Assembly (NCBI GenBank): GCA_937930825.1
Contig: CALHBL010000136.1
Span: 1 to 57,179, forward strand
Reading direction: 5' to 3'
Source of the DNA: an uncultured Bacteriovoracaceae bacterium
Lineage (GTDB): Bacteria; Bdellovibrionota; Bacteriovoracia; Bacteriovoracales; Bacteriovoracaceae
DNA: 57,179 bases
Below the pieces are notes generated by a model that was not told the DNA's origin, did no database searches, and worked only from the letters and a program-made list of their open reading frames with translations. Both the position numbers and the translations under genes were made by a program. Positions within the stretch are counted from its first letter, which is position 1; each line of letters begins with the position of its first letter. This document shows positions 33,487 to 57,179 of this stretch, piece by piece.

Positions 33487-34620
33487 ATGACATTAAAAAT
33501 TTTAACAATAGTTGGAACTCGACCAGAGCTAATAAAACTTAGCTCTACAATTAAACTCTTAGACACCTCATTTCGCCACGTCCTTGTGCATACAGGACAA
33601 AACTACGACTACGAGCTAAATGAAGTATTCTTTAAGGATCTTCTTATTCGAAAGCCTGATTACTTTCTAGAGTCAGCAAGAGACTCTCCGGCCAAAACAG
33701 TAGGAGCTGTGATCTCTAGCTTTGACGAAGTTTTGGAAAAAGAGGTCCCTGATGCCGTCCTTTTGTACGGAGACACTAATAGCTGCCTTTCAGTTATATC
33801 TGCGAAGAAGAGAAAGATACCAGTATTTCATATGGAAGCTGGAAACCGCTGTTTTGATCAAAGAGTACCTGAAGAAGTTAATCGCAAGATTGTTGATCAC
33901 CTAAGTGATATTAATATGGTTCATAGTGAGCATGCGAGAAGATACCTTACTAGCGAAGGCATTAAACCTGAAACTATTATTAAGACAGGCTCACCTCTTG
34001 GGGAAGTCTTCAACGAGTTTAAGGAAGAAATAGAAAAGTCAAATATCCTTACGAATCTAAATATTCTAGAAAATAAATACTTTATAGTGAGTGCCCATAG
34101 AGAAGAAAATGTCGACAGTGAGAAAAACTTTAGAAGCCTTCTTGATTCTCTTAACTTTCTAGCTGAGAAGTTTAATTTCCCCATTGTATTTTCGACTCAC
34201 CCGAGAACCCGCAAAAGACTTGATGCACTTTCAGGCTTAAAATTAAATTCACTAATAAAGTTTATAAAGCCTTTAGGCTTTTTTGATTATAACAAACTAC
34301 AGAAATGTGCCTACTGTGTAATCTCAGATAGTGGAACTATAACTGAAGAGTCCCATTACCTCGGTTTTCCAGGAATAATGACACGGAATGCTCATGAGCG
34401 GCCAGAAGGCATGGATGTAGGAAAAATAATAATGTCAGGCTTAACTCGAGAGGGAGTTTTTGACTCTGTAAATTTAGCTGTTAAATTACATAAGAATCAA
34501 ACTCGAACAATCGAGAACTATTCCTATGACTCTGTTTCTAGCCAAGTAGTTAAGATTATTCAAAGTTACACGGGTTATATAAATCGAACCGTATGGTCTA
34601 AAGGAAATCAAAATGTTTAA
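33487..34620 (+). CDS. UDP-GlcNAc 2-epimerase family (WecB/CapG/FnlC type)
   Basis: This is a non-hydrolysing UDP-HexNAc 2-epimerase with GT-B fold, 377 residues, the usual length. Motifs are VGTRPELIKLSS (8-19), HTGQNYDYELNEVFF (35-49), HMEAGNRCFDQRVPEEVNR (118-136), SAHREENVD, and SDSGTITEES near 280. The last block and the FKDLLIRKPDYFL segment look more like CapG/FnlC, which acts on 6-deoxy sugars, than WecB. That fits the next gene, a CapE/PseB-like dehydratase overlapping by 8 bases. The ribosome site GGAG is 8 bases before the ATG. Confidence 0.88.
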   Translation: MTLKILTIVGTRPELIKLSSTIKLLDTSFRHVLVHTGQNYDYELNEVFFKDLLIRKPDYFLESARDSPAKTVGAVISSFDEVLEKEVPDAVLLYGDTNSCLSVISAKKRKIPVFHMEAGNRCFDQRVPEEVNRKIVDHLSDINMVHSEHARRYLTSEGIKPETIIKTGSPLGEVFNEFKEEIEKSNILTNLNILENKYFIVSAHREENVDSEKNFRSLLDSLNFLAEKFNFPIVFSTHPRTRKRLDALSGLKLNSLIKFIKPLGFFDYNKLQKCAYCVISDSGTITEESHYLGFPGIMTRNAHERPEGMDVGKIIMSGLTREGVFDSVNLAVKLHKNQTRTIENYSYDSVSSQVVKIIQSYTGYINRTVWSKGNQNV

Positions 34621-35632
34621 AGATAAGGTACTCTTAATTACTGGTGGAACAGGCTCTTTCGGTAATGCGGTTCTAAGACGTTTTCTTGAGTCTGATATAA
34701 AAGAAGTTCGCATTTTCTCAAGAGACGAGAAAAAACAAGATGACATGAGAAAATTATATATGCATCCTAAACTTCGTTTTTATATTGGCGATGTTCGAAA
34801 TATCAATTCCTTGAACTCAGCAATGAGAGGGGTAGATTATGTTTTCCATGCTGCAGCCTTAAAGCAAGTGCCATCGTGTGAATTCTACCCAATGGAAGCA
34901 GTTCAGACTAATATTTTAGGAACTGAAAATGTTCTAAATGCAGCAATAGACAACAACGTTGAGAAGGTCATTTGCTTATCAACCGACAAGGCAGTCTACC
35001 CCATCAATGCCATGGGCATGTCTAAAGCCCTGATGGAGAAAACCTTCGTCGCAAAATCAAGAACTATAGAAGGGCGACAAACAATTATTTGCGGTACCCG
35101 CTATGGAAATGTAATGGCCTCTCGTGGCTCTGTTATTCCGCTCTTTCTTGATCAAATTCGTGAAGGAAAGGAAATTACAATCACTGACCCAACAATGACT
35201 CGTTTCATGATGAGCCTTGATGATGCAGTTGAACTTGTTCTCTTCGCCTTTGAGAATGGCAAGCAAGGAGAGATCTTTGTTCAAAAAGCACCTGCGGCGA
35301 CAATTCAAGTCTTGGCCGAAACGCTCAGAGAAATGGTTAACAAGCCTCAACATCCCATTAAAGTCATTGGAACAAGGCACGGAGAAAAACTTTACGAGAC
35401 TCTATTAACTCGAGAAGAGATGGTGCACGCTAAAGATGAGGGTCGCTATTATAGAATAAAGCCTGATAATAGAGACTTAAACTATGCTAAGTATTTCGAA
35501 GACGGACAAAGTATTATTTCTCAAGCAGAGGAGTATCACTCCCATAATACCGACCGGCTCAACTCAGCTCAACTGATGAACCTACTTACCGGCCTGCATG
35601 AAATCCAACAGGATTTAAAGCAGTTTCGATAG
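34613..35632 (+). CDS. UDP-GlcNAc 4,6-dehydratase (inverting), CapE/PseB type
   Basis: This is a soluble short dehydratase of 339 residues that removes water and inverts C5, giving UDP-2-acetamido-2,6-dideoxy-L-arabino-hexos-4-ulose. It has the Rossmann motif TGGTGSFGNAVLRRFL, FSRDEKKQDDMR, HAAALKQVPSCE, STDKAVYPINAMGMSK with the catalytic Met/Lys region, RYGNVMASRGSVIPLF and GTRHGEKLYETLL. The C-terminal PDNRDLNYAKYF and EYHSHNTDRL segments are those I associate with CapE/FnlA. Its product is the shared precursor of L-FucNAc (with CapG, the gene before) and of pseudaminic acid (with PseC, two genes after). AAGGAAAT precedes the ATG. Confidence 0.92.
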   Translation: MFKDKVLLITGGTGSFGNAVLRRFLESDIKEVRIFSRDEKKQDDMRKLYMHPKLRFYIGDVRNINSLNSAMRGVDYVFHAAALKQVPSCEFYPMEAVQTNILGTENVLNAAIDNNVEKVICLSTDKAVYPINAMGMSKALMEKTFVAKSRTIEGRQTIICGTRYGNVMASRGSVIPLFLDQIREGKEITITDPTMTRFMMSLDDAVELVLFAFENGKQGEIFVQKAPAATIQVLAETLREMVNKPQHPIKVIGTRHGEKLYETLLTREEMVHAKDEGRYYRIKPDNRDLNYAKYFEDGQSIISQAEEYHSHNTDRLNSAQLMNLLTGLHEIQQDLKQFR

Positions 35633-36127: not shown

Positions 36128-37351
36128 ATGGAACTCCTGCCTTATAACAGACAATTTATAGACGAAGATGATATTCTTGCAGTGACAGAGGCTTTGCGCA
36201 GTCCTTTTTTAACAACAGGCCCTATAGCAGATGAGTTTGAAAGAGAGCTCGCGGCATATGTCGGCTCTAAGTATGCAGTTGCTTGTTGTAATGGTACAGC
36301 TGCCTTACACATAGCACTCCTAGCACTTGGGATAAAAAAGGGTGATGCAGTTTTAACGACACCAAACACATTTCTTTCAGATGCAAATGCCGCCAGGTTC
36401 ATTGATGCTGACATTATCTTTGCCGATATTGACCCTGAAACAGCAAATCTATGCCCACAAAGAACCCGGGAAGCCCTCCAGTCTAATCCAAATATCAAGG
36501 CCATAATCCCCGTTCACTTTGCTGGACAACCTGTAAAAGTTGAAGAATTCAAGAAATTATCAGATGAATACAATGTCGTTATCCTTGAAGATGGATGTCA
36601 TGCATTAGGTGCATCTTATACTGATAAAACGGGAAATGTGCATAAAGTTGGCTCAAACTCTTTTTGTGATCTCACTACATTCTCATTTCATCCTGTAAAG
36701 AATATTACAACAGGAGAAGGTGGAGCAGTAACTACAAATAATGAGGAGCTCTTCAAACTTCTAAAAAAGTATCGTTCTCACGGCAACTCTAAAGAGCCAA
36801 ATGAAATGACCTATGAAGAGAATGCCTTTACTGAGATTGACGGGGAAAAAGTATTTAACCCTTGGTACTACGAAATGCACTACCTAGCCAATAACTACCG
36901 TATAAGTGACTTCCAATGTGCTCTTGGTCTATCACAATTAAAAAAACTTGATTACTTTATTGAACGTAGAAACTTACTTGCCAATCTCTATAGACAGTCA
37001 ATATCAAAACTCAATCATGACCGTATTCGATCGTTGTCTCAAGAACCTGGAAACCGAAATGCCTACCACCTCTTTGTTGTTCTAATCCCTATGCAGTCTC
37101 TCCGTGGCGGCAGGGCCAATCTTATGAATAGATTAAGGAAAAGAGGAATTAACACACAAGTTCATTATATTCCTATTTACCAGCAACCTTATTATCGCCA
37201 ATACTTCGGAAAACTTCTCAAATTTGATAATGCTGAAAATTACTATAATGAGTGCTTAAGCCTCCCACTATTTCCAGCGCTAACGAATGAGCACCCCCAG
37301 CTTATAGTAAATCATATTGATGAAATTATCTCAGACCTCTGGATTGATTAA
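36128..37351 (+). CDS. pseC: PseC-like UDP-4-keto-6-deoxy-AltNAc aminotransferase
   Basis: This is a PLP-dependent DegT/DnrJ/EryC1 aminotransferase that adds the 4-amino group to the product of the inverting dehydratase, in the pseudaminic acid pathway. The 407 residues begin with LPYNRQFIDEDDILAV and SPFLTTGPIADEFERELA, typical of PseC, followed by CCNGTAALHIALLAL, VHFAGQPV and EDGCHALGA. The PLP-binding Lys191 is in FSFHPVKNITTGEGG. It starts one base after the cytidylyltransferase stop, so translation is probably coupled. It could also serve a LegC-like role, but the CapE/PseB gene nearby favours PseC. Confidence 0.88.
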   Translation: MELLPYNRQFIDEDDILAVTEALRSPFLTTGPIADEFERELAAYVGSKYAVACCNGTAALHIALLALGIKKGDAVLTTPNTFLSDANAARFIDADIIFADIDPETANLCPQRTREALQSNPNIKAIIPVHFAGQPVKVEEFKKLSDEYNVVILEDGCHALGASYTDKTGNVHKVGSNSFCDLTTFSFHPVKNITTGEGGAVTTNNEELFKLLKKYRSHGNSKEPNEMTYEENAFTEIDGEKVFNPWYYEMHYLANNYRISDFQCALGLSQLKKLDYFIERRNLLANLYRQSISKLNHDRIRSLSQEPGNRNAYHLFVVLIPMQSLRGGRANLMNRLRKRGINTQVHYIPIYQQPYYRQYFGKLLKFDNAENYYNECLSLPLFPALTNEHPQLIVNHIDEIISDLWID

Positions 37352-37352
37352 A

Positions 37353-38105
37353 GTGAAAATTGTAGCAACTATTGAAGCAAGGATGGGCTCTTCACGGCTG
37401 CCCAATAAAGTCTTGATGGATATTGGAGGAATGAAAAGTCTCGAGTGCCAGATAAAGAGACTGAAACGCTCTAAGCTTATAGATACAATAGTCATTGCAA
37501 CTACTGACAAAAGTAGTGATGACCTTCTTGTTGCTTTTGCAGATGATATGGATGTTGCCTGTTTCAGAGGAAGTGAGCAAGATATCCTTGCAAGAATATT
37601 AGGTGCAGCAAAATCTCAAGACGCTAGTCTTCAAGTTCAGATAACTGGTGACTGCCCTTTAATTGACCCTGAGATCGTAGATCAAGTTATTCAGTGCTAC
37701 TTAGATAATTCCAAGGATTTTGATTTCGTTTCAAATGAAATAGAGCGCTCGTATCCAATCGGTCTAGACTGCCGTGTATTCCCTACTACAGTCTTAGAAG
37801 AAGTAGATCGAGATTGTAAAGACCCTATTCATAGGATTCACGGATCTACTTATATCTATATGGGACCTGGTAAAAATAAATATAAAAGTAAAAATTTTTT
37901 TGCTCCTAATGAACTCAATCACCCTTTGTGGAGATGGACTTTAGATACTCCTGAAGACCTAGAGTTTTTTAAGTCTGTACTAAATCACTTTAAAGAGGAA
38001 ATCATCAACTTAACCTCAATTGAGTTGAAAAATTGGTTGGTAAAAAATCCTGACATAGTCGAAGTGAACTCAAAGGTTAGGCAAAAAACGATTGAGGAAG
38101 GATAA
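37353..38105 (+). CDS. SpsF-like cytidylyltransferase (CMP-nonulosonate synthetase-like), copy 1
   Basis: SpsF proteins belong to the CMP-Kdo/CMP-Neu synthetase superfamily and are found in Bacillus sps-type loci; a CMP-sugar-forming role is likely but not proved. I start it at GTG 37353, which gives 250 residues beginning VKIVATIEARMGSSRLPNKV; upstream in-frame starts lie inside pseC. The nucleotide-binding RMGSSRLPNKVL motif, VIATTDKSSDD, CFRGSEQDILAR and ITGDCPLIDPEIVD are visible. Its stop overlaps the next start as TAATG. A paralog lies at 41746. Confidence 0.83.
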   Translation: MKIVATIEARMGSSRLPNKVLMDIGGMKSLECQIKRLKRSKLIDTIVIATTDKSSDDLLVAFADDMDVACFRGSEQDILARILGAAKSQDASLQVQITGDCPLIDPEIVDQVIQCYLDNSKDFDFVSNEIERSYPIGLDCRVFPTTVLEEVDRDCKDPIHRIHGSTYIYMGPGKNKYKSKNFFAPNELNHPLWRWTLDTPEDLEFFKSVLNHFKEEIINLTSIELKNWLVKNPDIVEVNSKVRQKTIEEG

Positions 38106-39959: not shown

Positions 39960-40011
39960 ACTTTTGTTTAATATATTACCTGAATAACTAATATAGATTA
40001 GGAGTACTGTA

Positions 40012-41085
40012 GTGAGTATTGAATTTAGAATTGAAGACAAGCTTATAGGTTCAAACCATCCAACTTACTTCATAGCAGATATTGCAGCAAATCACGACGG
40101 AAACCTCGACAAGGCCATTAAGCTTATCAGGCTAGCGGCCGAAGCTGGTGCTGACGCCGTAAAGTTTCAACACTTTAATGCCAAAGGAATTGTTTCTGAC
40201 AAGGGCTTTAAGGATCTGCAAAACCAAAAATCTCACCAAGCTAAGTGGAACAAAACAGTATTCGAAGTTTATGAAGATGCCTCATTGAATCGAAACTGGA
40301 CTACTGAGCTACAGAATGCAGCAAAAGAGTATGGCGTACACTTCTTCTCATCCCCTTATGACTTCGAAGCCGTCGACCTACTCAACAAAGCCGGAGCACC
40401 TGCTCATAAGATAGGATCTGGCGATATCACCTGGACTAAAATGATTGAGTATATCTCTCAATCCAATAAACCAGTTATTCTTGCTACAGGAGCTTCAACA
40501 ATAGAAGATGTTGAAAGGGCCATGGATACATTGAACAGGTTTGATGTTCCAAAATGCCTTATGCAGTGTAATACCAATTATACCGGAGACTTAGAAAACT
40601 TAAAGCATATTCACCTAAATGTACTCAGCACTTATAAGCTTCTGTACCCTAATGTTGTTCTTGGGTTGTCCGATCATACACCTGGCCACTCTACAGTCCT
40701 AGGGGCCGTTGCCTTAGGAGCTAGAATGGTTGAAAAGCACTTCACAGATGACAAATCTCAAGAGGGTCCCGATCACAAATTCTCTATGGACCCAAGAGAC
40801 TGGAAGGAGATGGTTGATCGCACAAGAGAATTAGAAGCTGCTCTTGGCTCTACTAGAAAGTTTATAGCGGGTAATGAGCAAGAAACTGTTGTTCTTCAAA
40901 GAAGGTGCCTTCGTTTAAAAGAAGAGCTCACCAAAGGTGCTGTTTTGACCGAAAATAACTTAGAGGTCTTAAGACCAGCTCCCGCAGATGCGATTATGCC
41001 TTACGACTTGAACAAAATTCTTGGTAAGAGACTTAATAAAAATAAAACTGCTGGCGAACACCTGACATTTTTTGATGTTGAATAG
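40012..41085 (+). CDS. NeuB/PseI/SpsE-family nonulosonate synthase, copy 1
   Basis: NeuB-family enzymes condense phosphoenolpyruvate with a 6-carbon amino sugar to form a nine-carbon sialic-acid-like sugar. The 357 residues have a TIM-barrel domain with IADIAANHDGNLDKAI (17-32), DAVKFQHF, KIGSGDITW, GLSDHTPGH, MVEKHFTDD and GPDHKFSM. A C-terminal SAF/antifreeze-like domain has RLKEELTKGAVLTENNL and LRPAP. The usual Glu of the AEIG block is Asp here (ADIA). The start is GTG with TTAGGAG upstream. It is the first of two copies in one run. Confidence 0.9.
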   Translation: MSIEFRIEDKLIGSNHPTYFIADIAANHDGNLDKAIKLIRLAAEAGADAVKFQHFNAKGIVSDKGFKDLQNQKSHQAKWNKTVFEVYEDASLNRNWTTELQNAAKEYGVHFFSSPYDFEAVDLLNKAGAPAHKIGSGDITWTKMIEYISQSNKPVILATGASTIEDVERAMDTLNRFDVPKCLMQCNTNYTGDLENLKHIHLNVLSTYKLLYPNVVLGLSDHTPGHSTVLGAVALGARMVEKHFTDDKSQEGPDHKFSMDPRDWKEMVDRTRELEAALGSTRKFIAGNEQETVVLQRRCLRLKEELTKGAVLTENNLEVLRPAPADAIMPYDLNKILGKRLNKNKTAGEHLTFFDVE

Positions 41086-41743
41086 TAAAAGCCGCTTAGC
41101 CGTTGTTATCCCTGCTTATAATGAAGAGAAGACTATCGAAATGGTCATCGATCAGGTGCACTCAAGAGGTTATGCAGTAATAGTTGTATCGGATGGATCC
41201 AATGACCGTACCGTTGAAATTGCGACAGACAGAAAAGCCCATGTCATCGATCATATTCAAAATAAAGGATATGAAGCTGCTCTTAGCACCGGCGTACATG
41301 CTGCTCATGAAATGGGTTTTGAACTAGCAGCAACCTTTGATGCTGATGGGCAGCTTGCAGCAGATGACTTATCGCTTTTCATAAAGAAACTCGATGAAGA
41401 AAGTAGCGATATAGTTGTGGGGATAAGAAACTATCGCAACCGATATAGCGAAAACCTTCTTGCTCTCTTTGGAAAAATAAGATTCAACATAGAAGATCCT
41501 TTGTGTGGATTAAAGCTTTATCGATTAGAAAAAGCATCGAATTTCTTTCCTTTTGACTCTGATAAGCTTGTAGGAATGGAACTTGCCTTTAAGATGGCTT
41601 CTGCTCATTTAAAGTTCTCTCAAGTTCCTATTCAGGTAAGAAAAAGAGTTGGTGAATCTCGCTATGGAACCTCCCTAAAAGGAGAAGTCTTCATTCTTCA
41701 TTCTTTAAAAAAATCTATTCAAAAATTTGGACTACGGGCTTAA
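41075..41743 (+). CDS. glycosyltransferase family 2 (DPM1-like)
   Basis: The protein has 222 residues from the ATG (a TTG one codon earlier is also possible), beginning inside the end of the synthase gene. GT-A motifs are AVVIPAYNEEKTIEMV, VVSDGSNDRT, NKGYEAALSTGVHAA, the DxD block TFDADGQL and DPLCGLKLY. No membrane helices are present, so it resembles the soluble dolichol-phosphate-mannose synthase type. It may make a polyprenyl-phosphate sugar or add a sugar directly. Confidence 0.83.
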   Translation: MLNSKSRLAVVIPAYNEEKTIEMVIDQVHSRGYAVIVVSDGSNDRTVEIATDRKAHVIDHIQNKGYEAALSTGVHAAHEMGFELAATFDADGQLAADDLSLFIKKLDEESSDIVVGIRNYRNRYSENLLALFGKIRFNIEDPLCGLKLYRLEKASNFFPFDSDKLVGMELAFKMASAHLKFSQVPIQVRKRVGESRYGTSLKGEVFILHSLKKSIQKFGLRA

Positions 41744-41745
41744 AG

Positions 41746-42492
41746 ATGGCAAAAACAGTAGCGATTGTGCAGGCCAGACTCTCCTCGACTCGACTTCCGG
41801 AGAAAGTTCTCAAACCACTACTTTCAAAACCAGTACTCGCCCACGTAATAGATAGACTAGACCAAGTTAACTTAATTGATGAAGTAGTAATTGCCACAAC
41901 AATAGACAAAGAAGATGATCCCCTGATCGATTGGTGTAAAAAGAATGGTAAAAGCTATTTCAGGGGAGATTTAACAAATGTTCTCTCTCGATTTTATTAT
42001 TGTGCTAACCAATATCAAGCAGACCACATAGTAAGAGTAACCTCTGACAACCCTTTGGTTGATCCGTTTTTAGTAGAGCAAACACTCAAGCATTACTTCA
42101 AAACTAAATCTGACTACTGCGCAAATAATATTGTTAAATCTTTTCCTCATGGCCTAGACGTGGAAGTTTTTTCTTTTGAATCGCTAAGAGCTTCATTTGA
42201 GGAAGCAAAAGAAGCTTTTGAACTTGAGCATGTCACCCAATTTATTAGACATCGTGTAGACAGGTTTAAAGTCGAAAATTACCTCTCCCCCAAGCCTATG
42301 TCACATATTAGAATAACTTGTGATGAGCCTGAAGACTTTCAACTGATCAAAATTATTTTAAAGATATTGGGCGAAAGTGCGAATTTCCATAGTATTGTTA
42401 AACTTTTCGAAGAGTTACCAGCTCTTTGCAATGTCAATAAAAGTGCTAAATTGCGCCACAAAGAATACAATGACGGCCAAGGAATTAAATAA
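41746..42492 (+). CDS. SpsF-like cytidylyltransferase, copy 2
   Basis: The protein has 248 residues, paralogous to the gene at 37353: VAIVQARLSSTRLPEKVL at the N terminus, VIATTIDKEDD, YFRGDLTNVLSRFYY, VTSDNPLVDPFLV and CDEPEDFQLIK. It begins 3 bases after the GT2 gene. Two different copies in one run imply two activated sugars or two steps. By position this one pairs with NeuB copy 1 just upstream and with the second aminotransferase downstream. Confidence 0.83.
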   Translation: MAKTVAIVQARLSSTRLPEKVLKPLLSKPVLAHVIDRLDQVNLIDEVVIATTIDKEDDPLIDWCKKNGKSYFRGDLTNVLSRFYYCANQYQADHIVRVTSDNPLVDPFLVEQTLKHYFKTKSDYCANNIVKSFPHGLDVEVFSFESLRASFEEAKEAFELEHVTQFIRHRVDRFKVENYLSPKPMSHIRITCDEPEDFQLIKIILKILGESANFHSIVKLFEELPALCNVNKSAKLRHKEYNDGQGIK

Positions 42493-42506
42493 AAAAAGGA
42501 AAACCC

Positions 42507-43742
42507 ATGACAGATAAGCTCGCTATTCTTGGAGGAACACCTGTAAAAGAAACCCCCTTTCCAGGCTACAATACTATAACTGACAATGAGATCAATGCTG
42601 CTGTTGAAGTCATGAAAACAGGAATCTTATCAGGTTATGTTGCAAACCCAGGCCCTGAATTTCTTGGGGGGAAATGGACTTTAGAACTTGAAGAGGAGTT
42701 TAAAAAATTATTTAACTGCAAATATGCTATCAGCGTTAACTCAGCAACTTCTGGTCTGCATGCAGCACTCGCAGCAGCAGGTGTAGGACCAGGAGACGAG
42801 GTCATCGTTTCTCCATACTCAATGTCAGCTTCTGCAACTGCTGCAATCATGTGCGGTGGAACTCCAGTATTTGTTGATATTGAGCCTGATACTTTCTGCC
42901 TTCAAGTTGAACATGTGATGGCGGCAATTACACCACGGACGAAGGCCATTATGGCCGTTAATATCTTTGGACTTCCCGCTGATCTTACTTCGCTAAGAAA
43001 AGTAGCTGATCAAAATAATCTCATCCTCGTTGAAGACAATGCTCAGGCTCCTGCAGCAAAGTGCGCTGGCTCATGGACTGGAACAATTGGTGACATGGGC
43101 ATCTTTAGCTTGAATAGACATAAAACGATGCAATGTGGAGAAGGTGGAGTCGTCATTACAAACGACAAAACCCTAGCAAAGAGACTTAGAATGGTAAGAA
43201 ACCACGGGGAAACTGTCTTACCAGAATGGGGTGATGAACTAAGAGGTCACGAAGATATTGTAGGCTATAATTACCGTTTAACTGAAGTTCAAGCAGCAAT
43301 TGCAAAACCTCAAGTTCAAAGACTACATGAACTAAATGACCACCGAATAAAGCTTGCTGACTATCTTAGTACCCAACTTCAAGAGATTGACTTCTTAAGC
43401 TCTCCTAAAATCAGAGAAGACTGTACTCATGTATATTACCTTTATCCAATGATTTTTCATCCAGATAAAATTAATATCTCTAGAGACCGTTTTATAGAAG
43501 CAATGAAGGCCGAGGGTATGCCAGTTTCAAACTATGTTCGTCCTCTTTACCACATTCCTCTCTATACTAATAAGTGTGGGAACCACCCTTCTTATGACCC
43601 TAGTAAGAACCCTGTTGTAGAAAAATTATGGAAAGAAACAATGATTGTAACACCAATTTGCCACCCTCCGCTTTCGAAAGAAGACATTGACTTATTCGTA
43701 AACGCCATTAAAAAAATTGCCTCCTCTTCTGAGATGTTATGA
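42507..43742 (+). CDS. DegT/DnrJ/EryC1/StrS-family aminotransferase (SpsC/StsC-like)
   Basis: This is a PLP-dependent sugar aminotransferase of 411 residues. The start LAILGGTPVKETPFPG is typical of the StsC/AHBA-synthase/SpsC side of the family. It has NSATSGLHAALAAAGV, SPYSMSASATAAI, EDNAQAPAAK and the PLP-Lys region LNRHKTMQCGEGGVV, then NYRLTEVQAA. A good ribosome site AAAGGAAAA precedes the ATG. It shares ATGA with the next start. Clearly different from PseC at 36128, so it probably aminates a different keto sugar or polyol. Confidence 0.9.
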   Translation: MTDKLAILGGTPVKETPFPGYNTITDNEINAAVEVMKTGILSGYVANPGPEFLGGKWTLELEEEFKKLFNCKYAISVNSATSGLHAALAAAGVGPGDEVIVSPYSMSASATAAIMCGGTPVFVDIEPDTFCLQVEHVMAAITPRTKAIMAVNIFGLPADLTSLRKVADQNNLILVEDNAQAPAAKCAGSWTGTIGDMGIFSLNRHKTMQCGEGGVVITNDKTLAKRLRMVRNHGETVLPEWGDELRGHEDIVGYNYRLTEVQAAIAKPQVQRLHELNDHRIKLADYLSTQLQEIDFLSSPKIREDCTHVYYLYPMIFHPDKINISRDRFIEAMKAEGMPVSNYVRPLYHIPLYTNKCGNHPSYDPSKNPVVEKLWKETMIVTPICHPPLSKEDIDLFVNAIKKIASSSEML

Positions 43743-45909: not shown

Positions 45910-46902
45910 ATGATTATTCTCTTAGCGGACTCAGCACCTCATGTCGGGTTTGGACACATACGAAGAATGATGACTCTCTATGATTTCTTAAAGAACGATT
46001 TTGCTACTAGCTTAGCATCACTTAACCCACCACCTTCACTTATTAAGGAGTTTCAAGAAAATAATATCTCTTACACCAGCCTAAAGTCTCTGAACCACCT
46101 AGAGTTAAAAGAGAAAAATCCAAATTTAAACTTTATAGTGTTCGACGGCTATGACTTCAGTGACAAGCTCATCAACTCCTTTAAAGAGATAGGTATAGGC
46201 ACTATGCTAGTAGAGGACTTTAGTAACTGTATTAAAAGTCCAGATATTATTCTTAATCATAGCCCTGGTTGTTCAGGTCATATGTATACGGGTAATTACT
46301 CACTTACTGGTCCCCAATATTCTTTAGTAAACCCTGTTTTCAATACAAAGAATAACTACAGTTATAAAAGAGGACAAGTCATGCTCTCCTATGGAGGAGT
46401 CGACCCAATGGGGCTTTCTCTTCCAACTCTAAAAGCTCTTTTAAATTTAGAGGAAAAGTTCAGTATTTATTTATTAGCAGGGTCAGAGGAAAAGGCCAAG
46501 GAGATAGAATCTCAACTACTCCCTAGGCAAAGAAAGGAGGTTGAAATTTTATCCAACATTCCTGCTGCGTCTGTAGCAAAAATTATGTCAACTAGTGAAT
46601 TTGGTATTTTCCCTGCCAGCACAATTGCAATGGAGGCTTGTCAAACAAGGTTACCTATCATTGTAACTCAAACCTCTGATAACCAAGAGCTATATAGGAA
46701 GGGACTCGTTGAACTATGCCTAGCTCATTACATTGAACCGAAAAACTTAGGCAGTACAAAGCTCTTAACTTGCGCAATAGCTCAACTTAGAGCTCAAAGT
46801 TCTAACTTATTAAGCGCCCAAGAATATTATTTTGATGGCGAGTCTAAAACTAGAATTATAAATGAGATTAACAAATTTCTACAGGCTCAAAATGAAATAT
46901 AA
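45910..46902 (+). CDS. pseG: PseG-like UDP-sugar hydrolase (nonulosonate pathway)
   Basis: PseG removes UDP from UDP-2,4-diacylamino-2,4,6-trideoxy-L-altrose, giving the free sugar for the PseI synthase. The protein has 330 residues in a GT-B-like fold: ADSAPHVGFGHIRRMMTLY with catalytic-type His16, FIVFDGYDFSD, NHSPGC, GPQYSLVNPVF, LSYGGVDPMGLS, and PASTIAMEACQTRLP. The SpsG relatives in Bacillus share these blocks. It follows a 51-residue frame by 3 bases and overlaps the first formyltransferase gene by 11 bases. Confidence 0.85.
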   Translation: MIILLADSAPHVGFGHIRRMMTLYDFLKNDFATSLASLNPPPSLIKEFQENNISYTSLKSLNHLELKEKNPNLNFIVFDGYDFSDKLINSFKEIGIGTMLVEDFSNCIKSPDIILNHSPGCSGHMYTGNYSLTGPQYSLVNPVFNTKNNYSYKRGQVMLSYGGVDPMGLSLPTLKALLNLEEKFSIYLLAGSEEKAKEIESQLLPRQRKEVEILSNIPAASVAKIMSTSEFGIFPASTIAMEACQTRLPIIVTQTSDNQELYRKGLVELCLAHYIEPKNLGSTKLLTCAIAQLRAQSSNLLSAQEYYFDGESKTRIINEINKFLQAQNEI

Positions 46903-47695
46903 GTACACCTCTCTTATTTTAGTTGGTGACTTTTGGGGATTATCCCTTTTGCTGAAGTATATACCTCACCAATTGGTGAGCTGTCTTATTTGCTCTTCAA
47001 TCAGGCCTCAATACATCAAAAAGATAGAAATGCTCGGCCGTGATCTTAATAAGAAGGTCTTGATTCAACCACCCTACAAGAGTAAATATTATCCAACATT
47101 TTTCGATGCTCTTAAAGTAGATGACTATGATCTTCTTATTTGTAATTCTTACTCACTTTTAATCCAAGAAAATGTTCTAGAGCTCGTTAATCAAAATGCT
47201 ATAAATATACACCCTTCCCTTCTACCTAAGAATAGAGGGCCTCACCCCACTCAATGGGTCATCATAAAAGGAGAAACTCAAACAGGCGTGACTATGCATT
47301 ACATGGATAATCAATTTGATTGTGGGGACCTTATTTCACAACAAGAGATAAGTATTGACTACTATGATACATGGGTAAGCTTAGATGAAAAAATCTCTAA
47401 GACTACTGAGTCACTTATTAAAACTAATATCGACAGGATCTTATGCGGCAATAATGAACGAACCCAACAGGATTCTAGCTTATCAAGCAAGAATGGAAAG
47501 TTAAATGCGGACTTTCCCCAAATAGACTTCAAAACTATGACAGATCTTGAAATTTATAATCTTATAAGAGGACAAGTTTCTCCTCTTAGCGGAGCCTTCA
47601 TCACATCTAAAGATGGTAAAAGGACTCATTTTCCGACCTTAACATCTATGAAGGAAATCGAAAATCTCAGAAGAAAGTGGAGTAAGAGTGAATAA
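46892..47695 (+). CDS. sugar N-formyltransferase, Fmt/ArnA-type fold, copy 1
   Basis: These enzymes transfer a formyl group from N10-formyltetrahydrofolate to an amino sugar or other amine. From ATG 46892 (the frame extends 10 codons into pseG) the protein has 267 residues. The catalytic Asn-His-Asp set is visible: INIHPSLLPKNRGPHPTQW gives Asn and His with the SLLP loop, and NQFDCGDLISQQ gives the Asp. The C-terminal part has IRGQVSPLSGAFI, a weak form of the Fmt C domain. Too short and wrongly placed to be the initiator-tRNA enzyme. Context between pseG and a synthase suggests an amino-sugar substrate. Confidence 0.85.
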   Translation: MKYKYTSLILVGDFWGLSLLLKYIPHQLVSCLICSSIRPQYIKKIEMLGRDLNKKVLIQPPYKSKYYPTFFDALKVDDYDLLICNSYSLLIQENVLELVNQNAINIHPSLLPKNRGPHPTQWVIIKGETQTGVTMHYMDNQFDCGDLISQQEISIDYYDTWVSLDEKISKTTESLIKTNIDRILCGNNERTQQDSSLSSKNGKLNADFPQIDFKTMTDLEIYNLIRGQVSPLSGAFITSKDGKRTHFPTLTSMKEIENLRRKWSKSE

Positions 47696-48587
47696 GAACC
47701 CATCGATCGCTTTACTTGTTTGCGGAGGGCTCGGCCTTGAAGCTCTTCAAAGCTTAAATTCAGATCATTCTATAACCTTTGTTTTCACTGACTCTAAATC
47801 ACTCTCAGTCATTCAATACTGTAAGACTAATGCAATCCCATTCTTCAGTTCTAATCCTCGAAGAGGGAGTGGTGCGAACTTTCTAAACATAAATCAACTC
47901 TCCAAACCAGATATCCTATTTTCTATTAACTACAAATATATCATTGAAGATGATATTTTTAATTTTTGTGAAATAATAGCTTTAAATGTTCATGGATCCT
48001 TACTACCAAAGTACAGAGGTCGAACACCTCTCATATGGGCCATTATTAATGGTGAAGAAAAGACTGGAATTACTATTCATGAGATTGATGCTGGCTGTGA
48101 TACCGGAGGCATTATTCTTCAGCAAGAAGTCACTATTCCAGTCTCAGCCACTGGACATGAGATGATCGAAGTTTTTAAGACGCTATATACCACAATGGTC
48201 AGACAGAGCATTCAACTAATTAAGTCCGGAAGCTATAAAGTGATCAAACAAATTGAAAAAGAGGCCACCTTTTACGGTCGCAGAACACCAGAGGATGGAG
48301 AAATTAATTGGGAGTGGAGTAGCTCCAGGATTTACAACTGGGTACGCGCTCTATCTCCACCCTATCCTGGTGCATTTAGCTACGTGTGTAATCAAAAATT
48401 TATCATTGAGAAGGTAACGAAAATCGAACACCCATTTTCACCTCTTCAAAAGAATGGAACTGTGATAGGTTTTATAGCAAATAGCCCAATCATTAAGTGC
48501 CAAGATGGTTGCATCTTAGTCGAGAAACATGACCCAGCAAGTCATTTAAAAATTAATCATCAGTTAACAGGTGTAAAGTATGAGTGA
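47688..48587 (+). CDS. sugar N-formyltransferase, Fmt/ArnA-type fold, copy 2
   Basis: The protein has 299 residues from a GTG start that overlaps the previous gene by 8 bases. LNVHGSLLPKYRGRTPLIWA carries the catalytic Asn/His and the folate loop, TGITIHEIDAGCDTGGIILQ the Asp, and the C-terminal INWEWSSSRIYNWVRAL followed by PPYPGAFSY is the canonical Fmt/ArnA C domain. More conserved than copy 1. The adjacent PseG and NeuB-type genes point to formylation of a 4-amino or 7-amino group of a nonulosonate precursor. ArnA and VioF are family examples acting on sugars. Confidence 0.9.
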   Translation: MNKNPSIALLVCGGLGLEALQSLNSDHSITFVFTDSKSLSVIQYCKTNAIPFFSSNPRRGSGANFLNINQLSKPDILFSINYKYIIEDDIFNFCEIIALNVHGSLLPKYRGRTPLIWAIINGEEKTGITIHEIDAGCDTGGIILQQEVTIPVSATGHEMIEVFKTLYTTMVRQSIQLIKSGSYKVIKQIEKEATFYGRRTPEDGEINWEWSSSRIYNWVRALSPPYPGAFSYVCNQKFIIEKVTKIEHPFSPLQKNGTVIGFIANSPIIKCQDGCILVEKHDPASHLKINHQLTGVKYE

Positions 48588-49596
48588 CGATAGAACATTT
48601 ATCATTGCAGAGATTGGAAACAATCATAACGGCAAACTAGAGAAAGCTATTAAAATGGTTGATGCTGCTGCGGCCGCAAAAGTAGATGCAGTTAAAATTC
48701 AATCCTTTAGAGGGCTTGATATTGTTTCTCCAAAAGTAAAGGCCAACGAATATCCTGGCTGGAATGTTAAAGAATTTGAGTATTGGTTTCAGTTTTTAGA
48801 TACCATTGCCCTTCCACTAGAAGACCATCAAGAACTCATTGACTATTCTCATTCAAAAGGTCTTAAATTTATAACAACACCTGTTTCTCCGGCAATTGTT
48901 GGAATCCTTGAGGAACTAAAAGGCATAGATGGATATAAGCTAGCCTCCATGGACTTAAATAATATTCCCCTTATTGAAGCTATGTCTAAAACTAGAAAGC
49001 CTATAACAATGTCTACCGGCATGGGTGCTTTAAGCGAAATACAAACGGCGGTAGAAAAATTTAAACGAAGTAATATTAATATCCTTCATTGTATTAGTGA
49101 CTACCCTTTACAAGCAAAGAATGCTGCATTAACAAATATTTCAGTCCTTAAAAAAGCATTTCCAGATCATACAATTGGTTTTTCAGACCACTCGCTTGGA
49201 CATGAACTGACCCTCTGCTCACTTGCTCTAGGAGCTAAAGTAATTGAAAAACATATTACTTTAGATAGAAATGATACAGAACTAGCAGAACATCACTTCT
49301 CCTTAGAGCCTAAAGAATTAACTGAGATGGTGAGTTGGATACGAGATATAGATTATAACCTGACTCAAAAAGATTGGCAAAGAAGCCCTCAAGAATCTGA
49401 GGGTAAGAGAAAATTTAGACGAAGCTACCATTATAAATCAAACCTCTTGAAAGGCCACTTAGTGCAGCTTGAGGACCTTACTTTTATAAGACCAGGGCAA
49501 GGAATCGATCATAAACAAATTGATGACCTTTTAAATAAACCACTGATAAAAGACATTCAGGCATATTCCCCCTGCCTTCTTCAAGATGTGAATTAG
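48580..49596 (+). CDS. NeuB/PseI-family nonulosonate synthase, copy 2
   Basis: This 338-residue phosphoenolpyruvate-condensing synthase retains the usual Glu in IAEIGNNHNGKLEKAI (9-24). It then has DAVKIQSF, YKLASMDLNNIPLIEAM, TMSTGMG, IGFSDHSLGHELTL and VIEKHITLD, followed by EHHFSLEPKEL and a C-terminal SAF domain (SNLLKGHLVQLEDLTFIRP). It overlaps formyltransferase 2 by 8 bases and follows pseG and both formyltransferases, so it probably takes the formylated free sugar as substrate. By sequence it is closer to the PseI/SpsE side than copy 1, though I cannot separate PseI, LegI and NeuB by eye. Confidence 0.9.
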   Translation: MSDDRTFIIAEIGNNHNGKLEKAIKMVDAAAAAKVDAVKIQSFRGLDIVSPKVKANEYPGWNVKEFEYWFQFLDTIALPLEDHQELIDYSHSKGLKFITTPVSPAIVGILEELKGIDGYKLASMDLNNIPLIEAMSKTRKPITMSTGMGALSEIQTAVEKFKRSNINILHCISDYPLQAKNAALTNISVLKKAFPDHTIGFSDHSLGHELTLCSLALGAKVIEKHITLDRNDTELAEHHFSLEPKELTEMVSWIRDIDYNLTQKDWQRSPQESEGKRKFRRSYHYKSNLLKGHLVQLEDLTFIRPGQGIDHKQIDDLLNKPLIKDIQAYSPCLLQDVN

Positions 49597-49604
49597 AAGG
49601 AAAT

Positions 49605-50312
49605 ATGCTCAATATTGAAAAAAAGAAAATACTAGTCATTGCTGCCCATCCGGATGATGAAGTCATTGGAGTTGGCGGAACTATTCATAAGTTAGTAAAA
49701 GAACATAAATGCGAAGCACATTGCCTAATTTTGGGGGAAGGCTTAACAGCAAGAGGACCATCTAACAACCGAGAGGCGTGGACTGAGCAGCTTAACCATC
49801 ACCGTCAAAATACTTTAAAATCATCCGTAATTTTAGGTTACAAAACATCTGAAGCATTAAACTTTCCAGATAATCGGTTTGACTCAGTCACTCTTTTAGA
49901 CATTGTAAAAGTTATAGAAAAAAAATGCGAAGAGATTCTACCTGATATTATTTTTACACATCACGGAAGTGACCTAAATATCGACCACCGCATCACCTGC
50001 GAAGCAGTATTAACTGCAAACAGGCCACAACCTCATGAACAGAGAAGATCTATACTTACATTTGAAACCCTCTCTTCAACGGAGTGGCAAGCGCCATTGG
50101 CCTCTCAAGCGTTTCTTCCGAACATATATATTGAGATAAATAAAGATAACCTCGATTCTAAAATTAAAGCTTTAGAAGCGTATGATACAGAAATTAAAAA
50201 GTACCCTCATCCTAGATCTACTAAGGGCCTAACAATTACTGCACAAAGGTGGGGGCTAAATGTTGGAGTGAATTATGCTGAGGGCTTTCGCTTACTACGA
50301 ACAATTATTTAG
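49605..50312 (+). CDS. PIG-L/LmbE-family N-deacetylase
   Basis: This is a zinc-dependent deacetylase that removes acetyl from GlcNAc-type or other amide groups. The protein has 235 residues: VIAAHPDDEVIGVGGTI with the zinc motif HPDDE at 15-19, EAWTEQLNHHR, LNFPDNRFDSV, and HHGSDLNIDHRI supplying further zinc and catalytic residues. It lies 8 bases after the second synthase gene. Next to two formyltransferases it could expose an amine for formylation, swapping acetyl for formyl on a sugar. Confidence 0.88.
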   Translation: MLNIEKKKILVIAAHPDDEVIGVGGTIHKLVKEHKCEAHCLILGEGLTARGPSNNREAWTEQLNHHRQNTLKSSVILGYKTSEALNFPDNRFDSVTLLDIVKVIEKKCEEILPDIIFTHHGSDLNIDHRITCEAVLTANRPQPHEQRRSILTFETLSSTEWQAPLASQAFLPNIYIEINKDNLDSKIKALEAYDTEIKKYPHPRSTKGLTITAQRWGLNVGVNYAEGFRLLRTII

Positions 50313-50321
50313 GAGATAGCA

Positions 50322-51020
50322 TTGATTCTTTCAGCACACCAGCCAGCATTTATACCTTGGTTAGGCTACCTCCATAGAATAATGCTTGCGGATAAATTTG
50401 TAATTCTGGATAATGTTCAATTTGAAAAAAACTCATATACTAACCGTAATAGAATAATGGGGCCCAATGGGCCGATGTGGATAACGATTCCCGTTTCTCT
50501 TAAAGGGCATACAGACTCAACTATTAAAGATATTCAAATTCCAAATTCTAACTGGCGTAAAAAAGTATCTAAATCTATTTACCAGTCTTATATCAAATCA
50601 CCCTTTTTAAAAGATCATTGGGCTTTTTTTGAAAATGTATTTGAAAGAGAGTGGAAAAGCTTAGTTGAAATTAACCAAGAAATCCTTCATTATCTCTTAG
50701 CTGCTTTTGAGATTGAAACTCCTATTTATCTACAAAGTGAATTAGAAACCATAGGAAAGAAACAGGACCTCATTATTTCTCTATGCGAATATTTTAGCGC
50801 TGATCAATTTATTTTTGGCCCAAATGGCAAAAGCTATATAGAAAAAAAACTTTTTTCAGAAAAAGAAATTATACCAAGTTTCCACTATTATAATTCTCAA
50901 CCCTACCCCCAAAGAGGCAAGGAATTTTTACCTAATTTAGCGGCTATTGATCTACTATTTAACTTACCTAAAGAGCAATTAAAAGGAGCTCTTATAAGTG
51001 GTGGAATAATTGAAAAATAG
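50322..51020 (+). CDS. WbqC-family protein
   Basis: The protein has 232 residues with the family N terminus LSAHQPAFIPWLGYLHRI, then DNVQFEKNSYTNRNRI, ITIPVSLKGH and FGPNGKSYI. WbqC-like proteins occur in O-antigen and modified amino-sugar loci; their catalytic role is not settled in what I know, and amide-forming or acyl transfer functions have been proposed. The start is TTG with AGGAG 6 bases upstream. Placed after the deacetylase, it could act on the same exposed amine. Confidence 0.83.
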   Translation: MILSAHQPAFIPWLGYLHRIMLADKFVILDNVQFEKNSYTNRNRIMGPNGPMWITIPVSLKGHTDSTIKDIQIPNSNWRKKVSKSIYQSYIKSPFLKDHWAFFENVFEREWKSLVEINQEILHYLLAAFEIETPIYLQSELETIGKKQDLIISLCEYFSADQFIFGPNGKSYIEKKLFSEKEIIPSFHYYNSQPYPQRGKEFLPNLAAIDLLFNLPKEQLKGALISGGIIEK

Positions 51021-54639: not shown

Positions 54640-56118
54640 ATGATATTTAACTCTTTAGAGTTTGCTCTATTCTTTCCATTATTTTTTGTGATTTACTCAC
54701 TGCTTTATACAAATTTAAAAAAGCAAAACTTAATCATATTAGTTGCAAGCTACCTTTTCTATGGCTGGTGGGATTGGAGGTTTTTAACACTAATTATGGC
54801 AAGTACTCTTGTTGATTTTATTATAGGACTCGAGATAGCAAAAGCAAGTCATGAAAAGAAAAGAAAAAAACTTTTATTGATAAGTATTTTTTTCAACCTA
54901 GGATTACTTGCTTTTTTCAAATATTATAATTTTTTCATAGATAATCTCATCTCATCTTTTTCATTTCTAGGCATCAAATTGCAAACTCGCTCACTTAATA
55001 TTATTTTACCTATTGGAATCAGCTTCTACACATTTCAAACAATGAGTTACACTATTGATATATATAAGAAAAAGATAAAACCAGTAACTGCAATTATTTC
55101 GTTTGCAGCTTTTGTGTCTTTTTTTCCACAACTTGTTGCTGGCCCAATAGAAAGAGCAACAAATCTCTTACCCCAGTTTCAAAAAAAACGAATATTAAAA
55201 TATGAACAGGTAGCTGATGGACTAAAGTTAGTAGTTTGGGGCTTATTTAAAAAGGTTGTTATTGCTGATAGGCTAGCTATTCTAGTAAATAATGTTTACG
55301 GATCGCCTAATGAGTATAATGGAGTTTGCCTTGTTATCGCTACTATTTTCTTTGCCTTCCAAATTTATTTAGACTTTTCTGGTTATTCAGATATTGCGAT
55401 TGGTGCCGCAGAAACTCTAGGGTTTAAATTAATGAATAATTTTAATCGACCCTACTTTTCTAAAAGTGTGTCAGAGTTTTGGAAAAGGTGGCATATATCA
55501 CTTTCAAGCTGGTTTAGAGATTATGTATACATCCCCTTAGGTGGGAATAAATGCTCCAAAAAAAGGCTTTATTTAAACCTCATTATCACTTTTACCCTTA
55601 GTGGACTATGGCATGGGGCAAACTGGACCTATATTATTTGGGGAGCATTGAATGGTGCCTATCTGATTTCTTCTATATGGGTAAGTAATATTAAAAGTCA
55701 GTTTATCGTTGAATCGGAAGACAAAAAGCGTCTTTCCAATATTACAAAATTATGTAAAATCTCTACCACCTTTATTCTAATTTGTCTTTCTTGGATCTTC
55801 TTCAGGGCCCGAACAGTTCATGAGGCTCTCTATATTATCTCCAACCTTCATACTGGATGGGCAGAGACCATAAGAAAGATTATTAGCGGCTCGATTCCAG
55901 GAATGAACTTTGGCTTAGGAGCTAAAGAGTTTGTTATTTCTTGTTTACTCCTACTGTTTATCTTAATTGTTCATTTACTGCAGAGAAGTAAGCCTCTAAG
56001 GGAGACAGTTAAAAACCTGCCTACCTATCCAAGGTGGATTTTTTACTATAGCGCAGTACTGTCCATTATTTATTTAGGAGCTTATGGTGAAAACCAGTTT
56101 ATATATTTCCAATTTTAG
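54640..56118 (+). CDS. MBOAT-family membrane O-acyltransferase (AlgI/PatA/DltB-like)
   Basis: The protein has 492 residues with about eleven membrane helices. It has LPIGISFYTFQTMSYTIDIY, FFPQLVAGPIERA, LDFSGYSDIAIG, FWKRWHISLSSWFRDYVYIPLGG, and the catalytic-type His in SGLWHGANWTYIIWG at about residue 324. The family moves acyl groups, usually acetyl, across the membrane to surface polysaccharides. A GAAGGAAG ribosome site precedes the ATG. The next gene, an SGNH-type protein, starts inside its 3' end, and such pairs work together (AlgI with AlgJ/AlgX, PatA with PatB). Confidence 0.93.
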   Translation: MIFNSLEFALFFPLFFVIYSLLYTNLKKQNLIILVASYLFYGWWDWRFLTLIMASTLVDFIIGLEIAKASHEKKRKKLLLISIFFNLGLLAFFKYYNFFIDNLISSFSFLGIKLQTRSLNIILPIGISFYTFQTMSYTIDIYKKKIKPVTAIISFAAFVSFFPQLVAGPIERATNLLPQFQKKRILKYEQVADGLKLVVWGLFKKVVIADRLAILVNNVYGSPNEYNGVCLVIATIFFAFQIYLDFSGYSDIAIGAAETLGFKLMNNFNRPYFSKSVSEFWKRWHISLSSWFRDYVYIPLGGNKCSKKRLYLNLIITFTLSGLWHGANWTYIIWGALNGAYLISSIWVSNIKSQFIVESEDKKRLSNITKLCKISTTFILICLSWIFFRARTVHEALYIISNLHTGWAETIRKIISGSIPGMNFGLGAKEFVISCLLLLFILIVHLLQRSKPLRETVKNLPTYPRWIFYYSAVLSIIYLGAYGENQFIYFQF

Positions 56119-57179
56119 GGATTTAAGAAAAATTCTCTTAAAGCTAATGATTTTTAGCCCACTACTTCTTCTTGTAATAGCCGTAAATTACTTTGTTGAC
56201 ATTGCTAATATTTATTCCAAATCTGATTACTATGACTTTATAGCAAAATCTATTTATTCAAATAAAAATGTTTATGGCATAACAAATTTAGATGAAAGGA
56301 TATTACAAAAAACATTAATTAATTTTCCTCAGAAGAAGTCTAAAGATTTAGTCATTATCGGCAGCTCGCGTTCGATGCAAATTGGTAATAATGTTTTTCC
56401 CGGAAATGTATTTAATCACTCTGTCTCAGGAGCCAGTATCGAAGATTATCTTGCTCTTATATACAACTATTACAAAGCTGGACGCTTACCCACTCACCTT
56501 CTGCTAGGTTTAGACCCTTGGGTACTGAATAAAAACAATGATCAATCGAGATGGCAATCCATCGCAAGCGACTACTTTAGAATGACTGAAGTCCTCAATA
56601 TTCCCCATAAGAATAAAATATCTTCTACTAAGCAATTAAATCTTATCTCATTTACATATTTTCAAAAGAATATAAATAACTTTACCAAAGTACTAAAACG
56701 AAAAGTGATAGATCATCATCAACTAGTTGCGACTAAAGATCAAACTATCAAAGAAAGCTCCGCTATACTCTCCGATGGAAGGAGGTTACATGGGAAAGAT
56801 GTTCATGATCTAACAGCTGAATCAGTTAAAAAATCAGCGATATCATTTGCTCAAAATGAAATTGTATACTCCTTAAGAGATTTTGCAGAGCTCTTTACTC
56901 CTAATATCAAGATTATTGAAAAGCTTATTCTATTTTTAAAAAAAAATCATGTAAGCATTTCATTCTTCCTTCCCCCATATCACCCTGAGGCATATCGTAG
57001 ATTAATTAAAAGAGAAAATACTAAAATCATAATAAACAGCGAGGATGCCTTTAGAAAGATAGCTTCAAAGTACAATATTTCGATTGTGGGATCCTACAAT
57101 CCCTTCACCTATAATTTAAAAGAAAGTCACTTCTCTGATGGTATGCATCCTAAAGAAGAAGCTATAGAAATAATTTTCA
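56084..57179 (+). CDS. SGNH-type protein paired with the MBOAT gene, 3' end missing
   Basis: This frame is open from ATG 56084 (or GTG 56087, better spaced from GGAG) through the window end, 365 codons so far, overlapping the MBOAT gene by 35 bases. One membrane anchor lies at about residues 17-36. The rest should be periplasmic. Motifs VIIGSSRSMQIG (about 90-101, Ser of the GDS-like block) and FSDGMHP (about 350-356, Asp-x-x-His block) fit the SGNH hydrolase/acetyltransferase fold, as in AlgX/AlgJ-type partners. It would complete acyl transfer from the MBOAT protein to the surface glycan. Confidence 0.8.
   Translation, partial: MVKTSLYISNFRDLRKILLKLMIFSPLLLLVIAVNYFVDIANIYSKSDYYDFIAKSIYSNKNVYGITNLDERILQKTLINFPQKKSKDLVIIGSSRSMQIGNNVFPGNVFNHSVSGASIEDYLALIYNYYKAGRLPTHLLLGLDPWVLNKNNDQSRWQSIASDYFRMTEVLNIPHKNKISSTKQLNLISFTYFQKNINNFTKVLKRKVIDHHQLVATKDQTIKESSAILSDGRRLHGKDVHDLTAESVKKSAISFAQNEIVYSLRDFAELFTPNIKIIEKLILFLKKNHVSISFFLPPYHPEAYRRLIKRENTKIIINSEDAFRKIASKYNISIVGSYNPFTYNLKESHFSDGMHPKEEAIEIIF

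Follow-up and report, generated by a model that had tools for sequence, protein, structure and literature searches.

Which acyl group is placed on the 4-amino sugar of a sialic-acid-like (nonulosonic acid) pathway when the acetyltransferase PseH cannot be found? This question is raised by a stretch of 57,179 nucleotides from an uncultured Bacteriovoracaceae bacterium (contig CALHBL010000136.1; hereafter the window), which encodes in succession a PseG-like uridine diphosphate (UDP)-sugar hydrolase, two N-formyltransferases (FT1 and FT2), the nonulosonate synthase NeuB2, a PIG-L deacetylase and a WbqC-family protein (Table 1). These genes (positions 45910-51020) are one tightly packed operon, which probably completes a cytidine monophosphate (CMP)-nonulosonate pathway for a surface sugar, in which N-formylation replaces N-acetylation. 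The gene set, the intact catalytic residues and a recurrent exchange of PseH for a formyltransferase were all obtained by computation.

Profile searches confirmed the open reading frames (ORFs) and families of PseG, FT1, FT2, NeuB2 and PIG-L, all on the forward strand, as read by the initial annotation at 45910-50312. All junctions in the operon are overlaps or gaps of 8-9 bp: PseG overlaps FT1, FT1 overlaps FT2 and FT2 overlaps NeuB2, and the PIG-L and WbqC genes follow after gaps of no more than 9 bp. With 46862 as its start, the called FT1 ORF shares 41 bp with PseG. An ATG at 46892, which overlaps the PseG stop, is likelier to be its true start; residues 1-10 of the FT1 structure model are of low confidence (predicted local distance difference test (pLDDT) 57; whole model 88.6).

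Pfam profiles run against the ORFs of the window (at least 120 aa, excluding those that overlap longer ORFs) detected no GNAT or hexapeptide-repeat acetyltransferase family, in agreement with the initial annotation; for the DegT gene at 42507 NCBIfam profiles alone were used, and the ORF at 56084-57178 is truncated by the end of the window. Among acyltransferases of other kinds, only an MBOAT O-acyltransferase at 54640 was seen. A PseH homologue elsewhere in the genome had been named as a potential counter-argument. The genome-wide search returned only two weak GNAT matches on other contigs, at 26 bits compared with a cut-off of 93. To judge from these profiles, there is no credible PseH in this 88%-complete genome.

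FT2 is the candidate for the vacant step. Its catalytic Asn-His-Asp residues (N100/H102/D138) are intact, it aligns with the formyltransferase domain of ArnA at E=4e-46, and its structure model (pLDDT 93.6) matches ArnA at the level of the fold (template modelling (TM) score ~0.85). FT1 likewise retains the triad (N115/H117/D153) and has ArnA as its best fold match (TM 0.77). Alignment and structure prediction thus bore out the earlier description of two different Fmt/ArnA-type enzymes. A housekeeping role of FT1 or FT2 as Fmt or purine enzyme was rejected: the Fmt of this genome lies on contig C257 and groups with E. coli Fmt. In the phylogenetic tree, FT2 belongs to a clade (support 100/100) together with a protein of locus L073 (same family), one of Pseudohalioglobus lutimaris and proteins of Bacteroidota, so that the clade extends over at least three phyla, Bdellovibrionota, Gammaproteobacteria and Bacteroidota. 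E. coli ArnA, E. coli Fmt and the genome's own Fmt fall outside, and FT2 is not an ArnA by membership either (ArnA equivalog 187 bits, cut-off 777).

Gene contexts were gathered around PseG and NeuB genes of relatives, and around FT2 relatives in named genomes, and were labelled with purpose-built profiles. Of the six other members of the FT2 clade, four have their gene immediately between those for PseG and NeuB, and the genes overlap. A formyltransferase holds this slot in L073, L112 (Crocinitomix metagenome-assembled genome, MAG), L113 (P. lutimaris) and L115 (Bacteroidetes MAG), while sibling clusters have a GNAT there (L078, L079, L093, L110, L222, L226) or fused to PseG (L084, L100, L106). 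PseG-GNAT (PseG-PseH) fusion proteins of about 470-520 aa were seen in the latter three and in L224, L232, L233 and L239. Of 45 PseG loci that also have NeuB in the vicinity, a GNAT is present in 21, a formyltransferase without GNAT in 10 (three of these had been found via FT2 itself) and neither in 14. Loci L073 (formyltransferase) and L093 (GNAT) have sister PseI proteins and close PseG proteins, and therefore PseH and formyltransferase were swapped within a conserved cluster. As the order PseG-formyltransferase-NeuB is seen again in other phyla, the arrangement in the window is more than chance.

Two loci bear on the role of such enzymes. In P. lutimaris HF004, PseB (539), PseC (558), PseF (330), PseG (210) and PseI (487) each score above the curated cut-off, an FT2 relative occupies the PseH slot, and neither PseH above cut-off nor PIG-L was found in the genome; the complete pathway with the FT2-family enzyme lies at L113:8880-14996. 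In locus L077, from the same phylum as the window, PseG and NeuB are accompanied by a true PseJ (E=2e-56, 194 bits to solved PseJ) and no GNAT is present; there the PseJ orthologue stands beside NeuB and PseG (L077:3557-6312). Because of the FT2 clade, the synteny of the slot, the absence of PseH from P. lutimaris and the true PseJ in L077, formylation at the 4-N (C7) position is a well supported prediction.

PseJ is represented in the PDB by entries 6ci2, 6ci4, 6ci5 and 6edk, in which the formyltransferase is named for the pseudaminate pathway. Going by this name, it is assigned as the N-formyltransferase that acts in the place of PseH. FT2 resembles it in being a formyltransferase at the position of PseH among PseG and NeuB genes. 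However, FT2 scores 56 bits to PseJ and 161 bits to ArnA, and PseJ is shorter, whereas FT2 carries a Formyl_trans_C domain. Orthology with PseJ was rejected for both enzymes, FT1 reaching 59 bits to PseJ and each scoring lower to PseJ than to ArnA. FT2 is best read as a putative non-orthologous counterpart of PseJ, PseJ-like in role and outside the PseJ family. With the N-terminal formyltransferase of ArnA, which acts on UDP-Ara4N, FT1 and FT2 share the fold and the triad, and the same UDP-4-amino sugar chemistry is predicted for them; unlike ArnA, FT2 belongs to a separate clade, has another gene context and is without the fused dehydrogenase domain. The earlier placement of a formyltransferase at the PseH step thus stands for FT2 on the grounds of clade, recurrent synteny and PseH/formyltransferase swapping, the idea itself not being new.

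From this gene set we infer the substrate, the position and the order of steps of the following pathway. PseC (36128) would produce a UDP-2-acetamido-4-amino-trideoxy-hexose, to whose 4-amine FT2 would transfer a formyl group from 10-formyl-tetrahydrofolate where PseH would use acetyl-CoA. PseG would then strip UDP, NeuB2 would join the sugar with phosphoenolpyruvate, and an SpsF-like enzyme would yield the CMP-activated sugar. The expected product is a nonulosonic acid with a formyl group on N-7, for which 5-acetamido-7-formamido nonulosonic acid (Pse5Ac7Fo) or an isomer is the simplest candidate; the claim is for an N-formyl nonulosonate rather than for pseudaminate. The other nitrogen is probably the target of FT1 and PIG-L. 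In this add-on, which is less likely than not, PIG-L would take off the 2-N-acetyl group derived from UDP-GlcNAc, and FT1 would formylate the amine to give a 5,7-di-N-formyl sugar.

Several observations weigh against this pathway or parts of it: (i) the genome is incomplete; (ii) the dehydratase is below the cut-offs for PseB (TIGR03589, 340 vs 408 bits) and FnlA-like enzymes (TIGR04130, 575 vs 730), as are PseG (113 vs 153.6), NeuB2 for PseI (248 vs 340) and both cytidylyltransferases, which are of SpsF type, for PseF (29 and 26 vs 205.7); (iii) a position of NeuB2 nested in the PseI clade was disfavoured in approximately unbiased (AU) tests (p 0.001 and 0.025); (iv) loci L111 and L114 of the FT2 clade hold a GNAT as well, and PseG was not found in their genomes; (v) FT1 stands alone on a long branch of the tree, with no close relative and without independent synteny; (vi) FT-like proteins in PIG-L loci elsewhere lack the catalytic Asn (9/9), which both window enzymes have; (vii) in both the window and L103, WbqC is the direct neighbour of PIG-L; and (viii) the Fisher test for co-occurrence of PIG-L with FT-fold proteins in nonulosonate loci of the phylum (8/10 vs 10/69, p=6e-5) counts related loci as independent. 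As regards point (iv), the missing PseG implies that the hydrolase step there is carried out by something else; the two Bacteroidota loci (L111:9438-11909, L114:9366-11846) combine GNAT, an FT2-family enzyme and NeuB.

Points (v) to (viii) concern the second nitrogen. When the PIG-L protein was aligned with 36-44% identical proteins from Pse-type clusters, H15, D17, D18, D127 and H128 were invariant. It is the only PIG-L found in the genome, its nearest solved relatives are diacetylchitobiose deacetylases, and a function as bacillithiol deacetylase BshB was rejected (54 bits, equivalog cut-off 182.5). The 2-acetamido group is the target of the PIG-L sugar deacetylases known so far, which indicates the GlcNAc-derived nitrogen, i.e., C5 of the product. 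The co-occurrence given under point (viii) itself counts in favour of the proposal. Loci with GNAT, formyltransferase and PIG-L together (L097, L232, L238, L239) fit the release of a second nitrogen by PIG-L. FT1 overlaps both PseG and FT2, which favours action in the same pathway, and a distant formyltransferase in L072 (order PseC-PseG-NeuB-FT, no GNAT) indicates that other formyltransferases have also been recruited to PseG/NeuB loci. Since the PIG-L-paired proteins lack the Asn, they give no direct support for FT1, and their co-occurrence with PIG-L was dropped as direct proof of di-formylation; membership of FT1 in the PIG-L-paired short clade was ruled out by the tree and the Asn difference. 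Of the one or two N-formyl groups originally proposed, with the deacetylase exposing the second amine, the first is thus upheld through FT2, while the second would be a plausible addition. A 5,7-di-N-formyl nonulosonic acid, formed by FT2 together with a PIG-L/FT1 module that recurs in nonulosonate clusters and would exchange the normally invariant acetyl derived from GlcNAc for formyl, is accordingly put forward as a tentative suggestion.

WbqC-dependent acylation is an equal rival to the second formyl group. FT2 would then formylate the 4-N, PIG-L would free the 2-N for another group added by WbqC, and FT1 would serve another amino sugar of the glycan. The adjacency of PIG-L and WbqC noted above, their proximity in L093 and the presence of an FT-like gene or WbqC in each PIG-L locus of the sample are in line with such a role, as are the recurrence of WbqC in PseG/NeuB loci and further aminotransferases beyond PseC at 42507 (DegT) and 24586. 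No activity is known for WbqC, however, and the overlap of FT1 with its neighbours speaks for the same pathway; the complete scheme is as tentative as the second formyl group. WbqC is a candidate for an unrecognised enzyme of N-acyl groups. Besides the window (50322-51020), WbqC genes were found in L082, L093, L103, L233, L241 and L249, some of which are without a labelled GNAT.

Points (ii) and (iii) bear on the stereochemistry of the N-formyl nonulosonate. PseG, which was aligned with the UDP-sugar hydrolase 3hbm, is on a long branch of the PseG tree without close kin. NeuB1 and NeuB2 both fall outside the PseI clade; a position of NeuB2 as sister to that clade is compatible with the data (AU p 0.34), although the groups compared in these AU tests were defined once the tree was in hand, and some of the branches concerned are long. 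The nearest solved synthases of NeuB2 are SpsE and PseI, with near-equal scores. SpsG of B. subtilis is PseG-like. In B. subtilis the sps genes including spsG are needed for legionaminic acid (proposed pathway; PMC7439481), and therefore a PseG-like hydrolase alone does not prove pseudaminate. Canonical pseudaminic acid should not be assumed, given the sub-cut-off scores of the hydrolase, the synthase, the dehydratase and the cytidylyltransferases and the position of NeuB2, which is not nested. Another stereoisomer such as legionaminate is nevertheless rather unlikely: PseC passes its Pse cut-off (TIGR03588, 457 vs 423.5 bits), the dehydratase, of the 5-epimerising FnlA/PseB type, is the best PseB-like gene genome-wide, and in the remaining loci of the FT2 clade NeuB belongs to the PseI clade. 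Relatives of the second cytidylyltransferase (41746) occur in PseG-containing clusters (145-177 bits to L073, L093 and L100).

That both formyltransferases act on a different surface-glycan amino sugar, the nonulosonate being diacetylated by a PseH whose gene lies in the 12% of the genome not recovered, would agree with the incompleteness of the genome and with several aminotransferases in the window. It is improbable, as the FT1 and FT2 genes overlap closely with those of PseG and NeuB2, FT2 relatives hold the same slot in distant organisms, and P. lutimaris likewise has no PseH above cut-off.

N-formyl nonulosonates and PseJ are already known. In Halorubrum sp. PV6, 5-N-formyl-legionaminic acid was observed and a formyltransferase predicted; its gene is likewise located in the nonulosonate cluster, but the route is to legionaminate via LegG and the formyl is at C5 rather than C7 (PMC6137143). 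Flagellin glycosylation islands of Geobacillus have Pse genes without PseH and, in some island types, formyltransferase genes; unlike in the window, these are not assigned to the PseH step and no PIG-L is reported in the parts of that article consulted (PMC5109656). The polysaccharide of Pseudoalteromonas distincta KMM 638 contains Pse5Ac7Fo, the simplest product predicted for the window, known as a chemical structure and given no gene assignment in the passage citing it (cited in PMC3210612). In the literature collection searched, no text was retrieved that mentions pseudaminic acid together with the terms di-N-formyl or 7-N-formyl. The novel elements are a distinct, widespread group of formyltransferases that stand at the PseH step and, in addition, the set of FT1, PIG-L and WbqC. 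The findings point to an ArnA-type family as a second substitute for PseH, independent of PseJ and present in Bdellovibrionota, Gammaproteobacteria and Bacteroidota. FT2-type genes are readily mistaken for methionyl-tRNA formyltransferase, and predictions from gene clusters would then assign the wrong N-acyl group to sialic-acid-like sugars of bacteria. To our knowledge there is no established enzyme set for altering nonulosonates at C5; the deacetylase module, if true, would offer a testable route to C5-altered sugars and explain the origin of 5-N-formyl sugars.

Table 1. Genes of the window and Asn-lacking FT-like proteins of PIG-L loci
Feature	Position	Strand	Evidence
FnlA/PseB-like UDP-GlcNAc 4,6-dehydratase/5-epimerase	34613..35632	+	TIGR04130 575 bits, TIGR03589 340 bits
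PseC aminotransferase, making 4-amino sugar	36128..37351	+	TIGR03588 457 bits
First CMP-sugar cytidylyltransferase, SpsF/PseF-like	37317..38105	+	PF02348; PseF profile 26 bits
NeuB1, second nonulosonate synthase	40012..41085	+	PF03102 251 bits
Second SpsF-like cytidylyltransferase	41746..42492	+	PF02348
PseG-like UDP-sugar hydrolase, divergent	45910..46902	+	TIGR03590 113 bits; GFGH motif retained
FT1 N-formyltransferase	46862..47695	+	PF00551 94 bits; no Pfam C-terminal formyltransferase domain
FT2 two-domain ArnA-like N-formyltransferase	47688..48587	+	PF00551 + PF02911
NeuB2 nonulosonate synthase	48580..49596	+	PF03102 224 bits
PIG-L deacetylase	49605..50312	+	PF02585; HPDDE and DHR motifs intact
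WbqC-family protein	50322..51020	+	PF08889 230 bits; activity of family not known
Asn-lacking FT-like protein	L221:7182-7874		
Asn-lacking FT-like protein	L097:8653-9333		
Asn-lacking FT-like protein	L232:10666-11397		
Asn-lacking FT-like protein	L238:7786-8475		
Asn-lacking FT-like protein	L239:7577-8263		
Asn-lacking FT-like protein	L259:5929-6597		
Asn-lacking FT-like protein	L259:4611-5246		
Asn-lacking FT-like protein	L071:8385-9272		
Asn-lacking FT-like protein	L075:6871-7752		

The Asn-lacking FT-like proteins span at least two separate clades, and that of L239 matches PDB 1zgh, deposited as a methionyl-tRNA formyltransferase (E=2e-61). These proteins may catalyse something other than the usual transfer of a formyl group. 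In L071:5000-14000 (G175), dehydratase, aminotransferase, 2-epimerase, FT-like, PIG-L and NeuB genes lie in a row.

The genome has two NeuB genes, both within the window. NeuB1 is surrounded by a set (36128-43742) comprising the two SpsF-like cytidylyltransferases, a GFO/IDH oxidoreductase, an RmlD-like reductase, a family 2 glycosyltransferase (GT2) and the DegT aminotransferase; together these may form another ulosonic acid pathway. In two sibling clusters (L078:7307-9388, L079:5168-7241) a second, weaker-scoring class of PseG-like proteins is encoded next to a non-PseI synthase and a separate aminotransferase; both clusters also hold the canonical Pse set.

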